A DNA stretch of 64,000 nt from Nonlabens ulvanivorans (GTDB lineage: Bacteria > Bacteroidota > Bacteroidia > Flavobacteriales > Flavobacteriaceae). Positions 5,011 to 14,775 of the stretch are shown here, piece by piece. The stretch covers positions 248,001-312,000 of the forward strand of contig NZ_BBMK01000002.1 in NCBI RefSeq assembly GCF_000755285.1, given 5' to 3'. Below the pieces are notes generated by a model that ran no database searches, was not told the DNA's origin, and saw nothing but the letters and a program-made list of their open reading frames with translations. Both the position numbers and the translations under genes were made by a program. Position 1 is the first letter of the stretch. Every line of letters starts with the position of its first letter.

Positions 5011-6901
5011 ATGTCACAACAAGGAACCATTAACGTAGCCGTGGAAAATATTTTCCCGCTCATTAAGAAGTTTTTATACAGTGATCACGAGATTTTTCTA
5101 CGTGAGCTTATCTCAAACGCTACAGATGCGACACTTAAATTGCAGCACCTGGCAAGAATCGGGGGAAGCAAAGGTTGAACTGGGCGATCAAAAAATTGAA
5201 GTTAAGATTGATAAAGAAGCAAAGACTCTTCACATTATAGACCAAGGTCTAGGGATGAGTGAGGAAGAAGTGCAAAAATATATTAATGAGGTAGCTTTCT
5301 CTGGTGCCGAAGAATTTTTAGAAAAATATAAAGACACTGCAAAAGATAGTGGAATCATTGGACATTTCGGTTTAGGATTCTACAGTGCTTTTATGGTAGC
5401 AGATAAGGTAGATATTATAACAAAGTCATTTAAAGATGAGCCAGCAGTACACTGGTCATGTGATGGTTCTCCTAACTACACCATTGAGCCGGCAGATAAG
5501 AAAGAATTTGGTACTGAGATTATTTTACACATTTCTGAGGATGAGACAGAGTTTCTTGAAGAGTCTCGTATTAAGGAACTATTAAACAAGTACAATAAGT
5601 TTATGCCAGTTCCTATCAAATTTGGAACTAAGACTGAGACCTTGCCTAAGCCAGAAGATGCAAAAGAGGATGATCCAGCACCTACTCAAGAGGTAGATAA
5701 TATTATTAATAATCCTACTCCAGCATGGACCAAGCAACCAGCAGATCTTGAGGATAAAGATTATAAAGAGTTCTATAGAGAGTTGTATCCTATGCAATTT
5801 GAGGAACCACTATTTAACATCCATTTAAATGTAGATTATCCATTCAATCTTACTGGGATATTATATTTCCCTAAGATGACTCAAGACTTGAATGTGCAAA
5901 AGGATCGCATCCAGCTGTATCAAAACCAAGTTTATGTAACAGATAATGTAGAGGGAATCGTTCCTGAATTCTTGACTATGTTGAGAGGAGTTATAGATTC
6001 TCCAGATATACCACTAAACGTTTCTCGTTCTTACTTACAGGCAGATGGTGCTGTAAAGAAAATATCGAGCTACATTACTCGTAAAGTAGCAGACAAGTTG
6101 AAATCATTATTTAATGATGACCGTGCAGCGTTTGAAGAAAAATGGAACGATATTAAAATCGTGATTGAATACGGAATGCTGAGCGAGGAGAAGTTCTTTG
6201 AAAAGGCAGACAAGTTTGCACTGTATCCTACAGTTGATGGTTCTTATTTCACTTGGGATGAACTTATAGAAAAAGTAAAACCAGCACAGACTGATAAGGA
6301 TGATAAAACGGTGTTACTGTATACTTCAAATCAAGAGGCACAACATAGTTATGTAACTGCAGCAAAAGATAAAGGATATGAAGTATTATTATTAGATTCT
6401 CCTATCGTTTCTCATTTGATGCAAAAATTAGAAACTTCTAAAGAGAATATTTCTTTCGTTAGGGTAGATGCAGACCATGTAGATAATCTTATTAAGAAAG
6501 ATGATGAGCAAATTTCAAAGCTCACTGATGAAGAAAAAGAAACCCTTCAAAAATCAATCACTGAAACCATTGCAGATACTAACTACACCGTCCAAGTAGA
6601 AGCGATGAGTAGTGATGCGGCACCATTTATTATCACTCAACCTGAGTTCATGCGACGTATGAAGGAAATGCAAGCTACTGGTGGTGGTGGTATGATGGGA
6701 TTCGGTAATATGCCAGATATGTACAATCTTGTTGTTAATTCTAATCATGAACTTGTTCAAGAAATCTTTAATTCTAAATCTGATGAAAAGAAAGCGAGTT
6801 TAATAAAACAGTCAGTTGATTTGGCTAAACTTTCTCAAGGTCTTTTAAAAGGAGAAGCTCTTACAGATTTTGTGAATAGAAGTTATGATTTGATCAAATA
6901 A
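5011..6901 (+). CDS. htpG: Chaperone protein HtpG (Hsp90), frameshifted at a G run
   Basis: Bacterial Hsp90, about 629 residues once one extra G is removed. The frame opens at 5011 (MSQQGTINVAVENIFPLIKK), runs through the GHKL motif ELISNATDAT, and breaks at 5161-5165, where five G occur and four give the conserved IGEAKVELGD. After the break come DQGLGMS and GHFGLGFYSAFM of the ATP-binding domain, the middle domain with NVSRSYLQ, and a C-terminal dimerisation region with a Gly/Met-rich GGGGMMGFGNMPDM stretch. Hsp90 remodels client proteins in the cytosol together with DnaK. A lesion in an otherwise intact housekeeping gene points to a sequence error. Confidence 0.93.
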
Positions 6902-7292: not shown

Positions 7293-7464
7293 GCATGTAA
7301 TTAAGTAACAGCTCAAGTTTCTTAAAAGCAAATTGGCAGATATCCCTATCTCCTGTCATAATTAACCCCTTAGATTAATGAACCTTGGTTCGCAAATGAT
7401 TATAGCATGTAAGGCTATTATCATCGCTCACAAATGTGTTTATATTAATTCTAAATATTTAATT

Positions 7465-8746
7465 ATGAAAAGAGTAATCATGAGTGCCGCGGCACTTGCA
7501 ATAGGAGGATTTGTCTTTGCACAAACTCCGCAGACAATCGCACCAATAGTACAGCAGTCATCTCCGACAGCTGCAGCCACAGTAGGTGGTAACTATTCTG
7601 ACATCGACCAAAAAGGTATTGGTAGTGATGCAAAAGTTCAACAACAAGGAACTGCAAACGCTTCATTTATCGAGCAAACGGGTACTGATGTAGCAAATCG
7701 TAACTCAGTAGATGTTCTACAATGGGGGGGTAACGTACAACCTAGTATAAGTGGACACCTTAACTATTCTGATATCAAGCAAAATGGTGCTGGTAACGAT
7801 TTTATGGCTACACAACAAGGTGATGAAAATGAAATTTCAGGTTTACAGATTGGATTAAACAATGCTGCCTTAGTACAACAAGGAGCTAATACTCCACAAC
7901 AAGCTGAAAATAATTTAGCTAAAGTTGATCAAGATGGTAAAGATAACTATGCTGAAGTTCAACAACGTTATGATGATAATGAAGCAAGCATTCTTCAAAG
8001 AAATGATGCTGCAGCTGGTGTAGGTAACCGTTCTTATCAAGACCAAGTTTCAAATCCTAACCAATCTGCAGGTCAAGTTGCAATAGGCGAGCAATGGTGA
8101 TAATAACGAGGCTGTACAAATTCAAGATAGTGGTTCTCCTGCATTAGGTGGTGGAAACCATGCTGAAATCCAGCAAGGTGATGCAACGAAAGACGCAACA
8201 GGTGCTTTTGCACAACAAGTTCAGTCTGGTGCGACTAACGAAGCGTATGCTACACAATTTTTATCTGGTGATGAATCTTACCAAGAGCAATTAGGTACAG
8301 ACAACAAAGCTGTTGTTAATCAAAATACTGCTGGATCTTTAAATGGCGGTGATAACTTAGTTGAGCAATTCCAAGATGGTGATCGTAACGAAGCACGTTC
8401 TACTCAAAACGGTAACAACAATATGGTGAATCAAGAGCAATACGGTATGGATAACTATTCTCGTGTAAGTCAAGGAAATGGACAAGCAGTTGGTAACATG
8501 GCGACTTCTATTCAAGATGGAGCTGATCACAATTCTGTTATCAATCAACGTGCAAACGGTAACGTTTCTACGGTTGATCAAACAGGTAATGGGCAAATGA
8601 GTTTAATCAATCAAAATGCACCACTAGCAGGACAACCAGCATTAACTTCTGGTCAAAACACTGCAACTGTGATTCAAAGAAATGCAAATGTTGCTTTAAC
8701 TCCTCAAGCTAGAAGAGCGGCAGCAACAAAAAGACACACATTTTAA
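7465..8746 (+). CDS. Major curlin-like amyloid subunit 1 (frameshifted)
   Basis: Secreted curli-type amyloid subunit, 427 residues when repaired. The start at 7465 gives the signal peptide MKRVIMSAAALAIGGFVFAQ, nearly identical to curlin 2. The mature part is a long string of curlin half-repeats of about 11 residues (N-x5-Q-x-G pattern, for example NYSDIKQNGAG and NDFMATQQGDE), more than twice the length of E. coli CsgA. It ends with the shared tail NVALTPQARRAAATKRHTF. The frame stops at 8100 because the codons for EQWGD read TGGTGA instead of TGGGGTGA (two G missing); the following frame runs to 8746. A 7-G run at 7724-7730 adds one Gly relative to curlin 2. This is either sequence error or a switchable tract. 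Confidence 0.88.
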
Positions 8747-8877: not shown

Positions 8878-10161
8878 ATGAAAAGAGTAATTTTAAGTGC
8901 TGCGGCACTAGCAATTGGAGGTTTTGCATTTGCACAAACTCCTCAAACAATCACACCAATCGTACAGCAAACGTCTCCGACAGCTGCGGCTACAGTAGGT
9001 GGTAACTATTCTGACATCGACCAAAAAGGTATTGGTAGTGATGCAAAAGTTCAACAACAAGGAACTGCAAATGCTTCATTTATAGAGCAAACAGGTACTG
9101 ATGTAGCAAACCGTAACTCAGTAGATGTTCTACAATGGGGTAACGTACAACCTAGTATAAGTGGGCACCTTAACTATTCTGATATTAAGCAAAATGGTGC
9201 TGGTAATGACTTTATGGCTACACAACAAGGTGATGAAAATGAAATATCAGGTTTACAAAATGGATTAGATAACGCTGCACTTGTACAACAAGGAGCTAAC
9301 ACTCCACAACAAGCCGAAAACAATTTAGCTAAAGTTGATCAAGATGGTAAAGATAACTATGCTGAAGTTCAACAACGTTATGATGATAATGAAGCAAGCA
9401 TTCTTCAAAGAAATGATGCTGTAGCTGGTGTTGGTAACCGTTCTTTCCAAAGTCAAGTTTCAAACCCTAATCAATCTGCAGGTCAAGTTGCGATAGGTGA
9501 ACAATGGGGGGGAGATAATAATGAAGCTGTACAAATTCAAGATAGTGGTTCTCCTGCATTAGGTGGTGGAAACCATGCTGAAATTCAGCAAGGTGACGCT
9601 ACTACTGAAGCGACTGGTGCATTTGCACAACAAGTTCAGTCTGGTGCAACTAACGAAGCATATGCTACTCAATATCTTTCTAGTGATGAGTCTTTCCAAG
9701 AGCAATTAGGTACGGACAACAAAGCAGTTGTTGAACAAAACACTGGTGGAATTTCTTCTGGAGGAAACAACTTAGTTGAGCAATTCCAAGATGGAGATCG
9801 TAACGAGGCTCGTTCTGATCAAAATGGTAACGGTAACACTGTTAACCAAGAGCAATATGGTCAAGATAACTTCTCTAGTGTGAAGCAACGTTATGGACAG
9901 GATGCTGGTAACATGGCAACATCTATACAAGATGGTTCTTTAAACAACTCTGTAATCAACCAACAATCTCATGGAAACATGTCGATGGTAGATCAAACAG
10001 GTGATGGTCAAACAAGTTTAATCAACCAAAATAACCCAACGACTGGTGCAGCTGCAGCAGCAGGTGGTTATAACAATGCAACCGTTATTCAGAGAAATGC
10101 TAACGTAGCATTAACTCCACAAACTAGAAGAATTGCTGCGTCTAAAAGACACACATTTTAA
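8878..10161 (+). CDS. Major curlin-like amyloid subunit 2
   Basis: An intact 427-residue amyloid subunit. The signal peptide is MKRVILSAAALAIGGFAFAQ. About 27 half-repeats of ~11 residues follow, rich in N, Q, G and D and spaced as expected for stacked beta-strand rungs exposing Gln/Asn ladders. The C-terminal tail NVALTPQTRRIAASKRHTF is shared with the other two long curlins. Nucleotide identity to curlin 1 is very high over the first ~530 bases, indicating a recent tandem duplication. A 7-G run at 9506-9512 yields EQWGGD where the paralogues have EQWGD-type sequence. Exported through CsgG and polymerised on the cell surface (family knowledge). Confidence 0.9.
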   Translation: MKRVILSAAALAIGGFAFAQTPQTITPIVQQTSPTAAATVGGNYSDIDQKGIGSDAKVQQQGTANASFIEQTGTDVANRNSVDVLQWGNVQPSISGHLNYSDIKQNGAGNDFMATQQGDENEISGLQNGLDNAALVQQGANTPQQAENNLAKVDQDGKDNYAEVQQRYDDNEASILQRNDAVAGVGNRSFQSQVSNPNQSAGQVAIGEQWGGDNNEAVQIQDSGSPALGGGNHAEIQQGDATTEATGAFAQQVQSGATNEAYATQYLSSDESFQEQLGTDNKAVVEQNTGGISSGGNNLVEQFQDGDRNEARSDQNGNGNTVNQEQYGQDNFSSVKQRYGQDAGNMATSIQDGSLNNSVINQQSHGNMSMVDQTGDGQTSLINQNNPTTGAAAAAGGYNNATVIQRNANVALTPQTRRIAASKRHTF

Positions 10162-10261: not shown

Positions 10262-11536
10262 ATGAAAAGCTCAATAATATGCGGATTATCACTGCTCATT
10301 AGTGGTATCGCAATCGCTCAAACATCACAGACACAACAGAATATTGTGGCGCCTGCACAACAAGTATCTCCGACAGCTGGTGCAACAGTAGGAGGAAATT
10401 ATTCTAACATCAATCAAAAGGGAATCGGTAGTGATGCATTAGTTCAACAACAAGGAACGGCTAATGCTTCTTTCATCGAACAAACTGGTACAGATGCTGG
10501 TAATCGTAATTCAGTTGATGTCCTGCAATGGGGAAATGTATCTGCATTAAGTGGTGAAGAAAATTATTCTGATATCAATCAAAATGGTGCAGGAAATAAC
10601 TTCACGGTAACTCAACAAGGAGACATGAATCAAGTTTTTGGTACTCAGACAGGTTTGGACATTACAGCAATTGTTCAACAAGGTGCTGATCTAGCTCAAC
10701 AAGCTCAAGACAATCTTGCTTTAGTAAATCAAGATGGTAAAGGTAACTTTGCCGAGGTACAACAAAGATATGACAACAATGAATCTACTATTACCCAGAA
10801 TAATGATGCTGTAAATGGAGTAGGAAATAGATCTTATCAAAGTCAAATCTCTGATGGGAACCAAACACCAGGCCATAAAGCTATAGGTACTCAATATGGA
10901 GATGACAATGAGATTATTCAAAGTCAAGATAGTGAATATCAACCGTTTGGTGGTAATAATTATGCTGAGGCTAATCAAGGAGATGCAGCGATAACAGCAG
11001 AGAGAGCATTCTCGCAACAAGTACAATCTGGTGGTTATAATAATGCATATTCTACACAATATGGATCAGACAATACTTCTTTCCAAGAACAAAATGGCTT
11101 AGTGAATACGGCAGAAGTACACCAAAACACAGCTTCTACAGGTGGAGATAATTATGCTGACCAATATCAAATAGGTGGATTAAATGAAGCATTTATAGAT
11201 CAAAATGGTCAGAATCATTCTGCATCACAAGAACAATATGGTGTTTTAAACGAAACGATTGTTATACAAAGTGGTGGGCAAATGGTAGGAAACCAAGCGT
11301 TAACTATCCAAAATGGAATGAATAACGATTCTTACGTGAATCAGATGGCAAATGGAAATATCGCAGATGTTGATCAATTAGGAATGAATCATGTATCTGT
11401 TATTAATCAAAATAGTCTAGGAACTGCGGCAGGTACAGGTGGTAGTAATACAGCCACAGTTACTCAAAGAAATGCAAATGTTTCTTTAACTCGTCAAACT
11501 CAACGTGCTGCAGCTACCAAAGCTCACACATTTTAA
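10262..11536 (+). CDS. Major curlin-like amyloid subunit 3
   Basis: 424 residues with a signal peptide ending SGIAIAQ and the same architecture as curlins 1 and 2: the N-terminal block NYSNINQKGIGSDALVQQQ, repeated 11-residue N/Q/G units and the tail QRAAATKAHTF. It is more diverged than the first pair in both DNA and protein. In it the WGN codons keep an intact four-G run (TGGGGAAAT at about 10530), unlike curlin 1. Likely co-assembles with curlins 1 and 2; the division of labour is unknown. Confidence 0.9.
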   Translation: MKSSIICGLSLLISGIAIAQTSQTQQNIVAPAQQVSPTAGATVGGNYSNINQKGIGSDALVQQQGTANASFIEQTGTDAGNRNSVDVLQWGNVSALSGEENYSDINQNGAGNNFTVTQQGDMNQVFGTQTGLDITAIVQQGADLAQQAQDNLALVNQDGKGNFAEVQQRYDNNESTITQNNDAVNGVGNRSYQSQISDGNQTPGHKAIGTQYGDDNEIIQSQDSEYQPFGGNNYAEANQGDAAITAERAFSQQVQSGGYNNAYSTQYGSDNTSFQEQNGLVNTAEVHQNTASTGGDNYADQYQIGGLNEAFIDQNGQNHSASQEQYGVLNETIVIQSGGQMVGNQALTIQNGMNNDSYVNQMANGNIADVDQLGMNHVSVINQNSLGTAAGTGGSNTATVTQRNANVSLTRQTQRAAATKAHTF

Positions 11537-11599: not shown

Positions 11600-12106
11600 A
11601 TGAAAAAAATACTTTTCTTACTCGTTTTCACCGCATTTACAGCTTTTGGTCAGACTTATGTAGATGATAGTCAGGTAATCAATACAGCAAATTTACAGAC
11701 AGCAAATGCGCAGCTCAATTTAGCATCTGATCAAAATTCATCAGCAACGACGACGACTCAATTTGTCAATCAAAATAGTGTTTTTATTGAACAAGTAGGT
11801 ACTAGCAATAATGCTACTGTAAGTGTTTCATCAGATGATAGTCAGATCAATATTTATCAAAATGGAACTCTTAATAATACTGTTTTGAATCACACAGCAG
11901 ATCGAATCAGACAAAACATTGTGCAAATTGGAAATTCTAATGCTGTTTATGATTATAGTACCATTGGTGCAGCAAATCATTCTTTAGATATTATACAGAA
12001 TGGAAATTACAATACATCGATTACTGCAGGTTCAAATGGCATATCTGAAAATATGCGAATTAATCAAACAGGGAACGGTAGATCTGTTTTTGTAATTAAC
12101 TTTTAA
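11600..12106 (+). CDS. Short curlin-repeat protein, CsgB-like nucleator candidate
   Basis: 168 residues with a signal peptide (MKKILFLLVFTAFTAFGQ) and several curlin-type strands, for example NSVFIEQVGTSNNATVS, SQINIYQNGTLNNTV and NYNTS. It is much shorter than the three major subunits and lacks their HTF tail. It lies directly before csgE, csgF and csgG. By size and position it may be the minor subunit that nucleates fibres on the surface, as CsgB does; that role is inferred. Confidence 0.78.
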   Translation: MKKILFLLVFTAFTAFGQTYVDDSQVINTANLQTANAQLNLASDQNSSATTTTQFVNQNSVFIEQVGTSNNATVSVSSDDSQINIYQNGTLNNTVLNHTADRIRQNIVQIGNSNAVYDYSTIGAANHSLDIIQNGNYNTSITAGSNGISENMRINQTGNGRSVFVINF

Positions 12107-12112
12107 GGTATC

Positions 12113-12841
12113 ATGAAAACTGCCTTAAACATTTTTGCTCTATTCATCTTTTGCTCATTGCACGCTCAAGCGCAAGAGCAAAAGTCTTATTATAATCAAG
12201 AGATAAGTGGTGAATTATTTTTAGAACAAAAAGGAGATTATGTATCTATTCAAGGTGTTGCTTTAAATCTTACAGATGTATCAGCAAGTATTAGGTACGA
12301 ATTAACAGTTTTTAAAAAAGATAGTCTTAATAATACATCAAAAAATAAGCAAGAAGGACGCGGTGTTTTAAATGCACAGACTAAAGCCATCCTATCCACA
12401 ACTACAGTAAATATTAATAGTCCCTCAAAAATAACGATCATGTTGCTTATCTATGATTTAGATAATAAGCTGGTAGGTAAGGCTGTTCAAGTATTAAAAG
12501 AAAATTCTCTGCAATTAGAAAAAGAAGAAATAGTAACTAATGATGGTGTAGAAATAAGAGGAATTGTTATTGAAAAAACAAGAACTAAACCGGCTAGAGA
12601 TTTTTATGATTATTTCTATGGAGAATATCATAAATATAAAATTAATGGTAATCGAATTGTTACCGTAGAAGAGGAATTTGGTCAAGGAAGAAATTCACTT
12701 ATCAAAGTTACCGTTGGAAGAGAAGTTGTTTATCAATTCTTTGTAACACCTAAAAAGAAGTACATGAAACAGATGGCAGATAATGCCATACGCTCTGTTT
12801 TTCAAAAGTTTTTACAATTAAAAAAAGAAGAAACTAATTAA
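12113..12841 (+). CDS. csgE: CsgE curli chaperone with CsgH-like N-terminal domain
   Basis: 242 residues, signal peptide ending SLHAQAQ. The C-terminal half (about residues 150-240) matches CsgE: a DFYDYFYGEY helix, then RIVTVEEEFGQGRNSLIKVTVGREVVYQFFVTPKKKYMK and a final helix. CsgE caps CsgG from the periplasm and delivers subunits. The N-terminal half (about 25-130) is not part of E. coli CsgE; its pattern (SIRYELTVFKKDS, a G-rich turn, LSTTTVNINSPSKITIMLLIYD) resembles the small curli chaperone CsgH of Alphaproteobacteria. That resemblance is my reading of the pattern and needs a profile search. It starts 6 bases after the CsgB-like gene and precedes csgF by 11 bases. Confidence 0.85.
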   Translation: MKTALNIFALFIFCSLHAQAQEQKSYYNQEISGELFLEQKGDYVSIQGVALNLTDVSASIRYELTVFKKDSLNNTSKNKQEGRGVLNAQTKAILSTTTVNINSPSKITIMLLIYDLDNKLVGKAVQVLKENSLQLEKEEIVTNDGVEIRGIVIEKTRTKPARDFYDYFYGEYHKYKINGNRIVTVEEEFGQGRNSLIKVTVGREVVYQFFVTPKKKYMKQMADNAIRSVFQKFLQLKKEETN

Positions 12842-12852
12842 ATAAATATATC

Positions 12853-13272
12853 ATGCTCACAAAATCTACAACATTGCTCTCGTTGTTATTTTTAGTTCTA
12901 GCTTATACAGCTTGTAACGCACAACAATTTACTTACAAACCTATCAATCCTGCTTTTGGCGGTGATACTTTCAATTATCAATGGTTAATACAAAGTGCTG
13001 AGGCACAAAATAGATTCACAGATCCAGCAGAATCTGCAATAGATGATACCTCTGAACTGGATGCTTTTACTGACGGTTTAAATAGGCAACTACTTAGTGG
13101 CTTTTCACGTCAGATTTTAAATCTACAATTAGGTGAAGAAGAATTAAGACCAGGTGTTTTTACGATAGGTTCTTATGAAGTAGAGGTTTTGGAATCTTTG
13201 GAAGGTTTAGTAGTCAATCTATTAGACACTAATACAGGAGATCAAACCCAAATTATTATTCCTAATAATTAG
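12853..13272 (+). CDS. csgF: Curli assembly protein CsgF
   Basis: 139 residues with a signal peptide ending ACNAQQ. The mature N-terminus QQFTYKPINPAFGG matches the CsgF segment that plugs into the CsgG pore, followed by NYQWLIQSAEAQNR. The C-terminal strand region contains GSYEVEVLESLEGLVVNLLDTNTG. CsgF sits outside the CsgG channel and couples secretion to nucleation. Length is close to the E. coli protein. Confidence 0.9.
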   Translation: MLTKSTTLLSLLFLVLAYTACNAQQFTYKPINPAFGGDTFNYQWLIQSAEAQNRFTDPAESAIDDTSELDAFTDGLNRQLLSGFSRQILNLQLGEEELRPGVFTIGSYEVEVLESLEGLVVNLLDTNTGDQTQIIIPNN

Positions 13273-13289: not shown

Positions 13290-14775
13290 ATGAAATCTTA
13301 TAAAAACATCATGATTCTCATGATGCTTACCATGCTATTATCGGCTTGTGGAGCATACATGAATCAACCTATGGGAACTCAACCAGCCCGTATAGGAGAA
13401 GCGACAGAAGTCTCTAAGAGATTAATCGCTCTACCAGAGCCAGTGCACCAGCAGTGGTTGGTGTCTATGAATTTGAAGATCAAACTGGTCAATTCAAACA
13501 ATCAGAAAATGGAAGTACCTTCAGTAACGCTGTTACCCAAGGTGGAACAACCATATTAGTAAAAGCGCTAGAGGATTCAAAATGGTTCACACCTATTGAA
13601 AGAGAGAATCTAGGGAACTTACTTCAAGAACGTAATATTATACTCAATACCAGAAAAGATTATGCAGCGCGCAGTAATACACAAGTTAAAGAATTAGATC
13701 CATTACTATATGCAGGCGTGCTTATAGAAGGAGGAATTGTTTCTTATGACACCAATGTTTTAACGGGTGGTGCAGGTGCTCGATATTTTGGCGCTGGTGG
13801 TTCTACAAAGTATAGACAGGATCGAGTGACCGTTTATCTAAGGGCGGTTTCTACAAAAACGGGTAAAATAATGAAGACCGTTTATGTGTCAAAAACAATC
13901 TACTCTCAAGCGGTAGATGCGAGTTTATTTAGATACGTAAGTTTTAAAAGACTATTAGAAGCAGAAACTGGTTTTACAAGAAATGAACCAGGACAACTAG
14001 CCGTTAAAGAGGCTATAGAAAAAGCAGTTGAGGCACTGATTATTGAGGGAATCGATGCACAATTATGGTATCCTAAAGGAGGAAAGCCTGTGGCTGATCA
14101 AATGGTTGCCGCTTATAAAGAAGAAAAATCAGTTGCAGAAAACACAGATGTCTATCAACGTAATATGGTTAATAGACGCAGTAAATGGCGAGTAGATGCA
14201 GGTGCAGGTGTACATTGGTTAATGGTGATTACCCTAACGCTTACTATGAATATGCAGCAACTTTAGGCGCACAATATAATTTTTCACCTTATGTAGGTAT
14301 TCATGCCTCTGTGCATAAGTTTAGATTAAAAAATACTGATTTATTTAATCGAGAATTTGCAGCATCAGAACTTAATGTGCACTTAACCATGCTACCTTAT
14401 GATAAATTTACTCCTTATGTATATGGTGGTGGTGGTTTAAATCATGCAAACTGGTTTGAACAAAATGACTTAAAGGTTCAAGCAGGATTAGGTCTTGAAT
14501 ATACCTTATCGCCATCTATAGGTGTTAAAATATATGCTGACTATAATGCAGTTTTATCTGATGAACTAGACTATGTGGTCGCTGGGCAGCGTGATGATCA
14601 TTATCTCAAATTTGGGCTAGGTGTTAACATCTATCTAGGCGGTAATGAGGCAAAGGATAATGATGAGAAACGTAAAATGAGAAAATACCGTCGTACTCAA
14701 AGACGTATAGAAAATGAAATTAAGAGTTCAGGCAGAGCAAGAGGTTGTTGGCGATACGCTTTCGCGAAAGCGTAA
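13290..14775 (+). CDS. csgG: CsgG curli secretion channel with C-terminal beta-barrel extension (two frameshifts)
   Basis: Outer-membrane lipoprotein that forms the curli export pore, about 495 residues when repaired against ~277 in E. coli. Lipobox LLSACG near residue 20. The CsgG core is clear: VYEFEDQTGQFK, TTILVKALEDSKWFTPIER, NLLQERNII, GGAGARYFG and FRYVSFKRLLEAETGFTRNEP. After about residue 290 comes an added ~180-residue region with alternating strands (YNFSPYVGIHASVHKF, FTPYVYGGGGLNH, LGLEYTLSPSIGVKIYADYN) like a small OmpX/OmpA-type barrel. One base is missing near 13445 and one A near 14220. The last residues AFAKA and the stop are supplied by a palindromic repeat. Confidence 0.9.
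14755..14774. repeat. Palindromic repeat copy 3 (forms the csgG 3' end)
   Basis: Full 20-bp palindrome TACGCTTTCGCGAAAGCGTA, translated as YAFAKA and including the first two bases of the stop codon. Confidence 0.92.

Follow-up and report, generated by a model that had tools for sequence, protein, structure and literature searches.

A curli operon lies on the forward strand of the window, by which is meant the whole 64,000-nucleotide stretch of DNA that was analysed. The operon runs through three curlin genes, for proteins of 427 (8878–10161), 424 (10262–11536) and 168 amino acids (11600–12106), into a fusion gene, followed by csgF, csgG and a lipoprotein-like gene. The fusion gene (12113–12841), which has the short curlin gene immediately on its 5' side, is an open frame of 242 amino acids, and the other ORFs of at least 30 amino acids that overlap it reach only 34–63. 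The two long curlins were named from NCBIfam CsgB/CsgA matches and the short one from a CsgA match, all below the model cut-offs; a relative of the 424-residue protein in locus L121 passes the Pfam curlin repeat model. Likewise, csgF (12853–13272) was recognized by NF007469 (E = 5e-12, below the cut-off of that model), and its L121 relative passes Pfam CsgF. The CsgE-encoding end of the fusion gene lies with csgF at 12853 and the csgG region, which begins at 13290 and extends to 14775. In this assembly the csgG region is open in three different frames (13290–13559, 13454–14266 and 14185–14775), while close relatives have one, namely a single frame of 504 amino acids in L120, L121 and L122. This reflects either an assembly error or gene decay (the genome is 86.9% complete). 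Two partial curlin frames upstream (7378–8100 and 8423–8746) resemble, by eye, the N- and C-terminal ends of the 8878 curlin and look like one interrupted curlin gene. The first residues of an htpG-like ORF (5081–6901, named by eye) also seem out of frame, a hint of further frame errors in the assembly. As a separate observation, the C-terminal stretch of the 504-residue CsgG of L120–L122 (L121:9174–10688) resembles an outer-membrane beta-barrel, with a PF13505 score of 27 bits against a cut-off of 28.7; CsgG in the Flavobacterium locus L104 has 453 amino acids. Among named relatives, N. ulvanivorans PLR is nearest at 95% identity, followed by Flavobacteria bacterium BBFL7 at 90%; 18 of 59 relatives' genomes, its own included, have a match, 16 of them from the genus (out of 23 genomes) and two from the rest of the family.

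The fusion protein was divided into four parts. Residues 1–20 (12113–12172) resemble a signal peptide, as judged by eye from the sequence and from a modelled helix at residues 2–19 rather than by a signal-peptide predictor. A seven-stranded Ig-like domain follows at about residues 31–129 (12203–12499), delimited by NF041112, the model strands, the fold search and profiles against the PDB, and a flexible linker at residues 134–147 (12512–12553), delimited by pLDDT values below 50 and the scan for A-runs described below. The remainder, residues 148–240 (12554–12832), is covered by Pfam CsgE (PF10627) with an E-value of 3.1e-13 and 50.4 bits against a cut-off of 25. A profile built from 30 fusion proteins found the solved CsgE structure 2na4 in the PDB at E = 4.6e-9 and, in addition, CsgC at E = 4e-4. 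The assignment of the C-terminal half to CsgE, made earlier in a sequence-only reading, is upheld by two routes. The half shares with E. coli CsgE (PDB 2NA4; PF10627) both its family and its csgF and csgG neighbours; however, the solved E. coli chain has 114 residues, whereas the protein described here carries a second domain in front.

The same reading had likened the N-terminal half, by eye, to the curli chaperone CsgH. The NCBIfam CsgH model NF041112 aligned to residues 35–115 of the whole protein (E = 1.6e-8) with 34.4 bits, just below its cut-off of 35; a genome search gave 35.7 bits and residues 22–132 alone 36.1, so that the match is borderline. It is the sole CsgH match in the 86.9%-complete Nonlabens genome. 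Pfam CsgH (PF21112) gave no match on the window; this model matched one free Bacteroidota CsgH above its cut-off and 6 of 44 rows of an N-domain alignment at E up to 0.1. Pfam CsgC matched 17 of the 44 rows, and NF041112 40 at E up to 0.01. Searched against the PDB, the 44-row profile retrieved CsgC (E = 1e-4) and CsgH (E = 0.006), with nothing else below 0.1. This profile is not fully independent, because six of its rows are free CsgH proteins; the 30-protein fusion profile contains none. In profile–profile alignment with hhalign, the fused domain joined 6/6 free Bacteroidota CsgH proteins with E-values from 4e-8 to 2e-19, while the controls (nine shuffles, and N-termini taken from 16 other CsgE proteins) remained at background. 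The six had been picked because our own HMM found them, and NF041112 also finds all six independently. The profiles align with CsgC around an NTSKNxQxG stretch and the strands after it, and the CsgC sequence match spans chain residues 35–87. A CsgH-like N-terminus considered for two f19 proteins (L097 and L116) was dropped, as hhalign scored them no better than shuffles.

Structure prediction of the whole chain gave two confident halves separated by a disordered linker at 134–147 (mean pLDDT 83.4, pTM 0.45), and a pTM this low gives no prediction of how the halves are arranged relative to each other. Modelled alone, the N domain reached a pLDDT of 91.8 and a pTM of 0.84, with seven strands. 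Foldseek ranked Rhodopseudomonas palustris CsgH (2n59) first among PDB matches of the isolated domain (E = 2.3e-5, TM 0.59 on the query and 0.64 on the target), with E. coli CsgC (2xsk) at rank 6 (TM on target 0.75, rmsd 3.1). The ranks between and behind these two went, at E-values similar to that of CsgH, to Ig-like domains from GH2 enzymes, transglutaminases and a Bacillus proteinase inhibitor, and in the whole-chain search the Ig domain of a GH2 beta-glucuronidase ranked first, CsgH second and CsgC tenth. The Ig-like fold is right but common, and it is the sequence evidence that decides. The outcome that would have refuted the by-eye assignment, in which only an unrelated fold is matched with confidence, did not appear, yet unrelated Ig domains score near CsgH and one of them tops the whole-chain search. 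In combination, the curated model, the six hhalign pairings, the PDB profiles and the first rank in the fold search agree with one another and support, on sequence comparison and a predicted model, placing the N-terminal half in the CsgC/CsgH family.

The cysteine pattern tells CsgH from CsgC, according to those sections of Taylor et al. (2016, PMC4838910) that were available. The only cysteine of the protein, Cys14, falls inside the signal-peptide-like start, and of 157 scanned N domains (some genomes counted twice) 153 have no cysteine and four have one. Neither the disulphide of CsgH, that is, the two distant cysteines used as a criterion by Taylor et al., was present in the window domain or in the 157 scanned domains, nor was the CxC motif of CsgC in the window domain; the domain is by that criterion neither CsgC nor CsgH, and the exact claim is consequently membership of the CsgC/CsgH family. 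With R. palustris CsgH (PDB 2N59; NF041112, PF21112) it shares the seven-stranded Ig-like fold, the setting in a curli operon and a sequence match over model positions 4–81 of 91. It differs in lacking the cysteine pair and in being fused to CsgE, whereas CsgH is described, in the part of PMC3521004 consulted, as a separate gene adjoining csgA/B. The likeness to E. coli CsgC (PDB 2XSK/2Y2T; NF007507, PF10610) lies in the fold and in the sequence match over residues 35–87; that protein, unlike the fused domain without CxC, is a small free one (110-residue chain) bearing the CxC motif.

Charge contrast is given as central to inhibition in the available text of Taylor et al. (PMC4838910). In the window the calculated pI is 8.8 for the N domain and 9.8 for CsgE, against 4.1–4.3 for the three intact curlins; the broken curlin piece at 8423 has a pI of 9.7. 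Over the relatives, curlins were found at 78 of 80 loci, which hold 83 N domains; 34 of these lay more than 2 pI units above their neighbouring curlins, and 8 lay below them. The charge gap between N domain and curlins is not general. The earlier suggestion that the fusion suits very long curlins held for their presence, at 427 and 424 amino acids, but the link is dispensable. Fusions also stand beside shorter curlins (272 and 132 amino acids in L106; median curlin frame of 209 amino acids over 78 of the 80 loci), and very long curlins were set aside as its cause.

The occurrence of the fusion in other Bacteroidota was followed in an even sample of 395 genomes from this phylum, 41 of which have CsgE. 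A CsgH-like domain is linked to CsgE in all 16 CsgE-bearing Flavobacteriales genomes (12 from the same family as the window, four from other families), in one frame in 14 and across a frame change, the slip site treated below, in two. None of the other 25 CsgE-bearing genomes has such a domain in the CsgE frame, and six of them have a free CsgH by NCBIfam. The description of CsgH as a separate protein of Alphaproteobacteria, from which the sequence-only reading had started, needs amending. Separate genes exist, the six free CsgH of this sample among them, yet they are not exclusive to that class, and Taylor et al. (PMC4838910), so far as the text was accessible, already placed CsgH sub-families in Bacteroidetes. 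In a search for relatives of the window protein both domains shared one frame at 80/80 loci, a search biased toward full-length relatives. A quick CsgE tree (61 rows, 98 columns) placed 34 fused rows, some of them closely related to the window protein (itself not in the set), on one side of a branch with an SH-aLRT of 96.7; as far as such an alignment can tell, this fits one putative fusion event. At 5 of the 80 loci a single frame of about 400 amino acids holds two tandem CsgH-like domains ahead of CsgE, four from Olleya and one from a Lutibacter MAG (L149, L152, L160, L167 and L171). Salegentibacter salinarum carries a free CsgH-like gene (L178:1618–2028, 38.9 bits) as well as its fused one, and one Nonlabens MAG has a partial second copy of the CsgH-like domain at a contig edge.

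Among 249 Flavobacterium genomes, 60 have the CsgH-like domain, and in 27 of these 60 genes the CsgH and CsgE halves lie in different frames, with CsgE always in the −1 frame (27 among loci L217–L276; an example of the arrangement is L104:7573–8306). In every one of the 27 the CsgH frame ends on (G or C)AA AAA AAA AAG, an A10-G run with an in-phase A_AAA_AAG heptamer, and a stop follows 0 to 30 bases behind the run. A quick tree gathered 26 of the split genes in one clade, the early branches of which (L232, L233 and L236) are in frame and retain A10 or A11. The 27th, L269, stands apart beside an in-frame sister, which suggests a second origin of the slip site, or else one lone copy in decay. 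No run of seven or more A occurs around the linker in the window, which has no slip site.

From these observations we infer, without experiment, a probable function for the gene. It would encode a periplasmic two-domain curli chaperone, in which an Ig-like CsgC/CsgH-family domain is joined by a linker to CsgE and acts as a tethered inhibitor at the secretion pore, a free form being made by slippage in Flavobacterium; escort and anti-aggregation would be combined in one protein. Published work (PMC5135000, consulted in part) has CsgE capping the CsgG channel in a 9:9 complex and inhibiting CsgA at a ratio of about 1:1; CsgC is effective down to 1:1000, with CsgH of about the same potency, through brief electrostatic contacts. 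By analogy with E. coli, the CsgE ring may assemble under the CsgG pore. With the flexible linker of about 18 residues, such a ring would carry about nine inhibitor domains on tethers at the entrance of the pore, and there the tethered N domains might keep arriving curlins unfolded until CsgE passes them on. Conservation leads us to infer, for a large clade of Flavobacterium, a −1 slip in the linker that would give free CsgH and CsgH–CsgE from one gene and would restore a free CsgH pool. One gene yielding both free and fused CsgH would suggest that the balance between free and tethered inhibitor is important. With somewhat less assurance, we favour a wider reading in which Flavobacteriales merged the two anti-aggregation factors of the curli system in a single dosage-controlled machine. 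Fusion would have set up a ring of tethered inhibitor at the pore, with the inhibitor domain present twice in Olleya and one Lutibacter, and a programmed −1 slip in a clade of Flavobacterium, apparently gained twice, would set the ratio of free to pore-bound inhibitor.

The main alternative to an inhibitor is that the domain descends from CsgC/CsgH and no longer inhibits amyloid, serving instead as an adaptor for the CsgE ring, in docking or in spacing, much as a LysM domain might elsewhere. Such a role would accommodate the missing disulphide and the uneven charge contrast with the curlins, and LysM indeed occupies the same place in other Bacteroidota CsgE proteins (9 of 18 scanned). The stretch over which the profiles align with CsgC is, however, the one around NTSKNxQxG and the strands that follow, and the large Flavobacterium clade retains the domain as a complete, stop-terminated unit, which is hard to explain for a pure spacer. 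We regard the adaptor as unlikely, while keeping it in play.

The reading of the Flavobacterium genes as recoded, on which the free inhibitor depends, must be set against the possibility that sequencing errors or gene decay produced the split. Slips in sequencing and in replication readily occur at A10 runs, no recoding product was observed in this analysis, and L251, which lies inside the split clade, is in frame without the run. Moreover, an A-run alone proves nothing, because runs of at least seven A near the linker occur at 22 of 97 loci outside the Flavobacterium sample (the window included), with a frame change in 0/97; among 14 other Nonlabens loci, five have runs of 7 or 8 A there, three with an in-phase heptamer, and all are in one frame. 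Seven of the 33 in-frame Flavobacterium genes likewise retain a run of 9–11 A at which a −1 slip would meet a stop within 1–7 codons; as stops of this kind are frequent in AT-rich DNA, the finding is no more than suggestive. Against error or decay, 27 genomes agree in run length, phase and direction of shift, with a stop close behind. Third bases are invariant at 4/4 slip codons and at 1/35 flanking codons across the split genes, and both halves are under purifying selection, with a median dN/dS of 0.161 for CsgE (285 of 351 pairs) and 0.155 for CsgH (216 of 351 pairs) when pairs with saturated synonymous sites are left out. The split gene is, furthermore, the only CsgE match in genomes G371 and G379, a csgF-like frame is present in the same stretch in 27/27, and the curlin, csgF, csgG and lipoprotein frames around it are open at the four loci examined (4/4). 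Error or decay thus appears very improbable as a general account, and the split genes are interpreted as putative programmed −1 recoding into free CsgH and CsgH–CsgE, with either the ribosome or RNA polymerase slipping, an inference from conservation with the products not seen.

Separate, translationally coupled csgH and csgE genes were also considered and rejected, given that in 21 of the 27 genes the CsgE frame has no ATG, GTG or TTG before the CsgE domain (six do have one) and that no signal-peptide-like start was seen in the CsgE frame by a rough hydropathy count and by eye. The nearest known parallel is dnaX, whose −1 frameshift in E. coli uses A_AAA_AAG (PMC5009743 and PMC3711429, seen in part). 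The Flavobacterium site has the same in-phase heptamer and would give two products with a common N-terminus. The gene differs in that its default reading stops and the slip gives the longer product, in that it encodes a curli chaperone, and in that no convincing stem-loop, such as the one in E. coli dnaX, was found. The consensus behind the slip site has only six pairs, with a long loop and −1.5 kcal/mol, and a conserved stem-loop was rejected as slip stimulator; ribosomal slipping is therefore not claimed over RNA-polymerase slippage. In Thermus dnaX, slippage takes place at nine A, according to the accessible portions of PMC5009743 and PMC3711429. That the N-terminal half might be an unrelated Ig-like domain, resembling CsgH in general fold only, is strongly disfavoured: the near-equal Foldseek E-values of GH2 and transglutaminase domains and the absent PF21112 match on the window would allow it, but three sequence routes (curated HMM, profile–profile alignment and PDB profiles) lead to CsgH or CsgC, the gene sits in a curli operon, and a generic fold without kinship is ruled against by these routes.

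All Bacteroidetes genera were reported to lack csgC in the portion of Dueholm et al. (2012, PMC3521004) at hand, which leaves open how periplasmic curlins stay soluble there; an inhibitor built into CsgE is the answer proposed here for Flavobacteriales. CsgE and CsgC/CsgH are known families, and the fusion, its tandem form, LysM–CsgE and the slip site are, as far as searched, apparently new. The Bacteroidetes CsgH set of Taylor et al. (PMC4838910) may have included the fused domain, the words 'fusion' and 'fused' being absent from the available text, and no fusion is named in the part obtained of a survey from 2025 that covers 4723 clusters of curli genes (PMC12822426). None of these forms was found in the accessible parts of PMC5135000, PMC10192328, PMC5009743, PMC3711429 and PMC5745457 either, or elsewhere in the literature searched, a scope that leaves out subscription papers, preprints and supplements, so that an earlier mention is possible. 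If the slip site is read correctly, recoding would here be described for the first time in a system for amyloid export, as far as literature searches show. The natural fusion offers a tool for testing CsgC/CsgH action in the bulk periplasm versus at the pore, and the Flavobacterium site would make the ratio of free to tethered inhibitor measurable and tunable.

A different N-terminal extension of CsgE was noted outside Flavobacteriales, where nine of 18 scanned proteins (of 27 such proteins) carry a LysM domain above the Pfam cut-off (L078, L081, L082, L084, L090, L091, L092, L095 and L096). A literature search for LysM and CsgE together found no paper. The combination suggests, from domain content, a putative peptidoglycan-binding curli escort.
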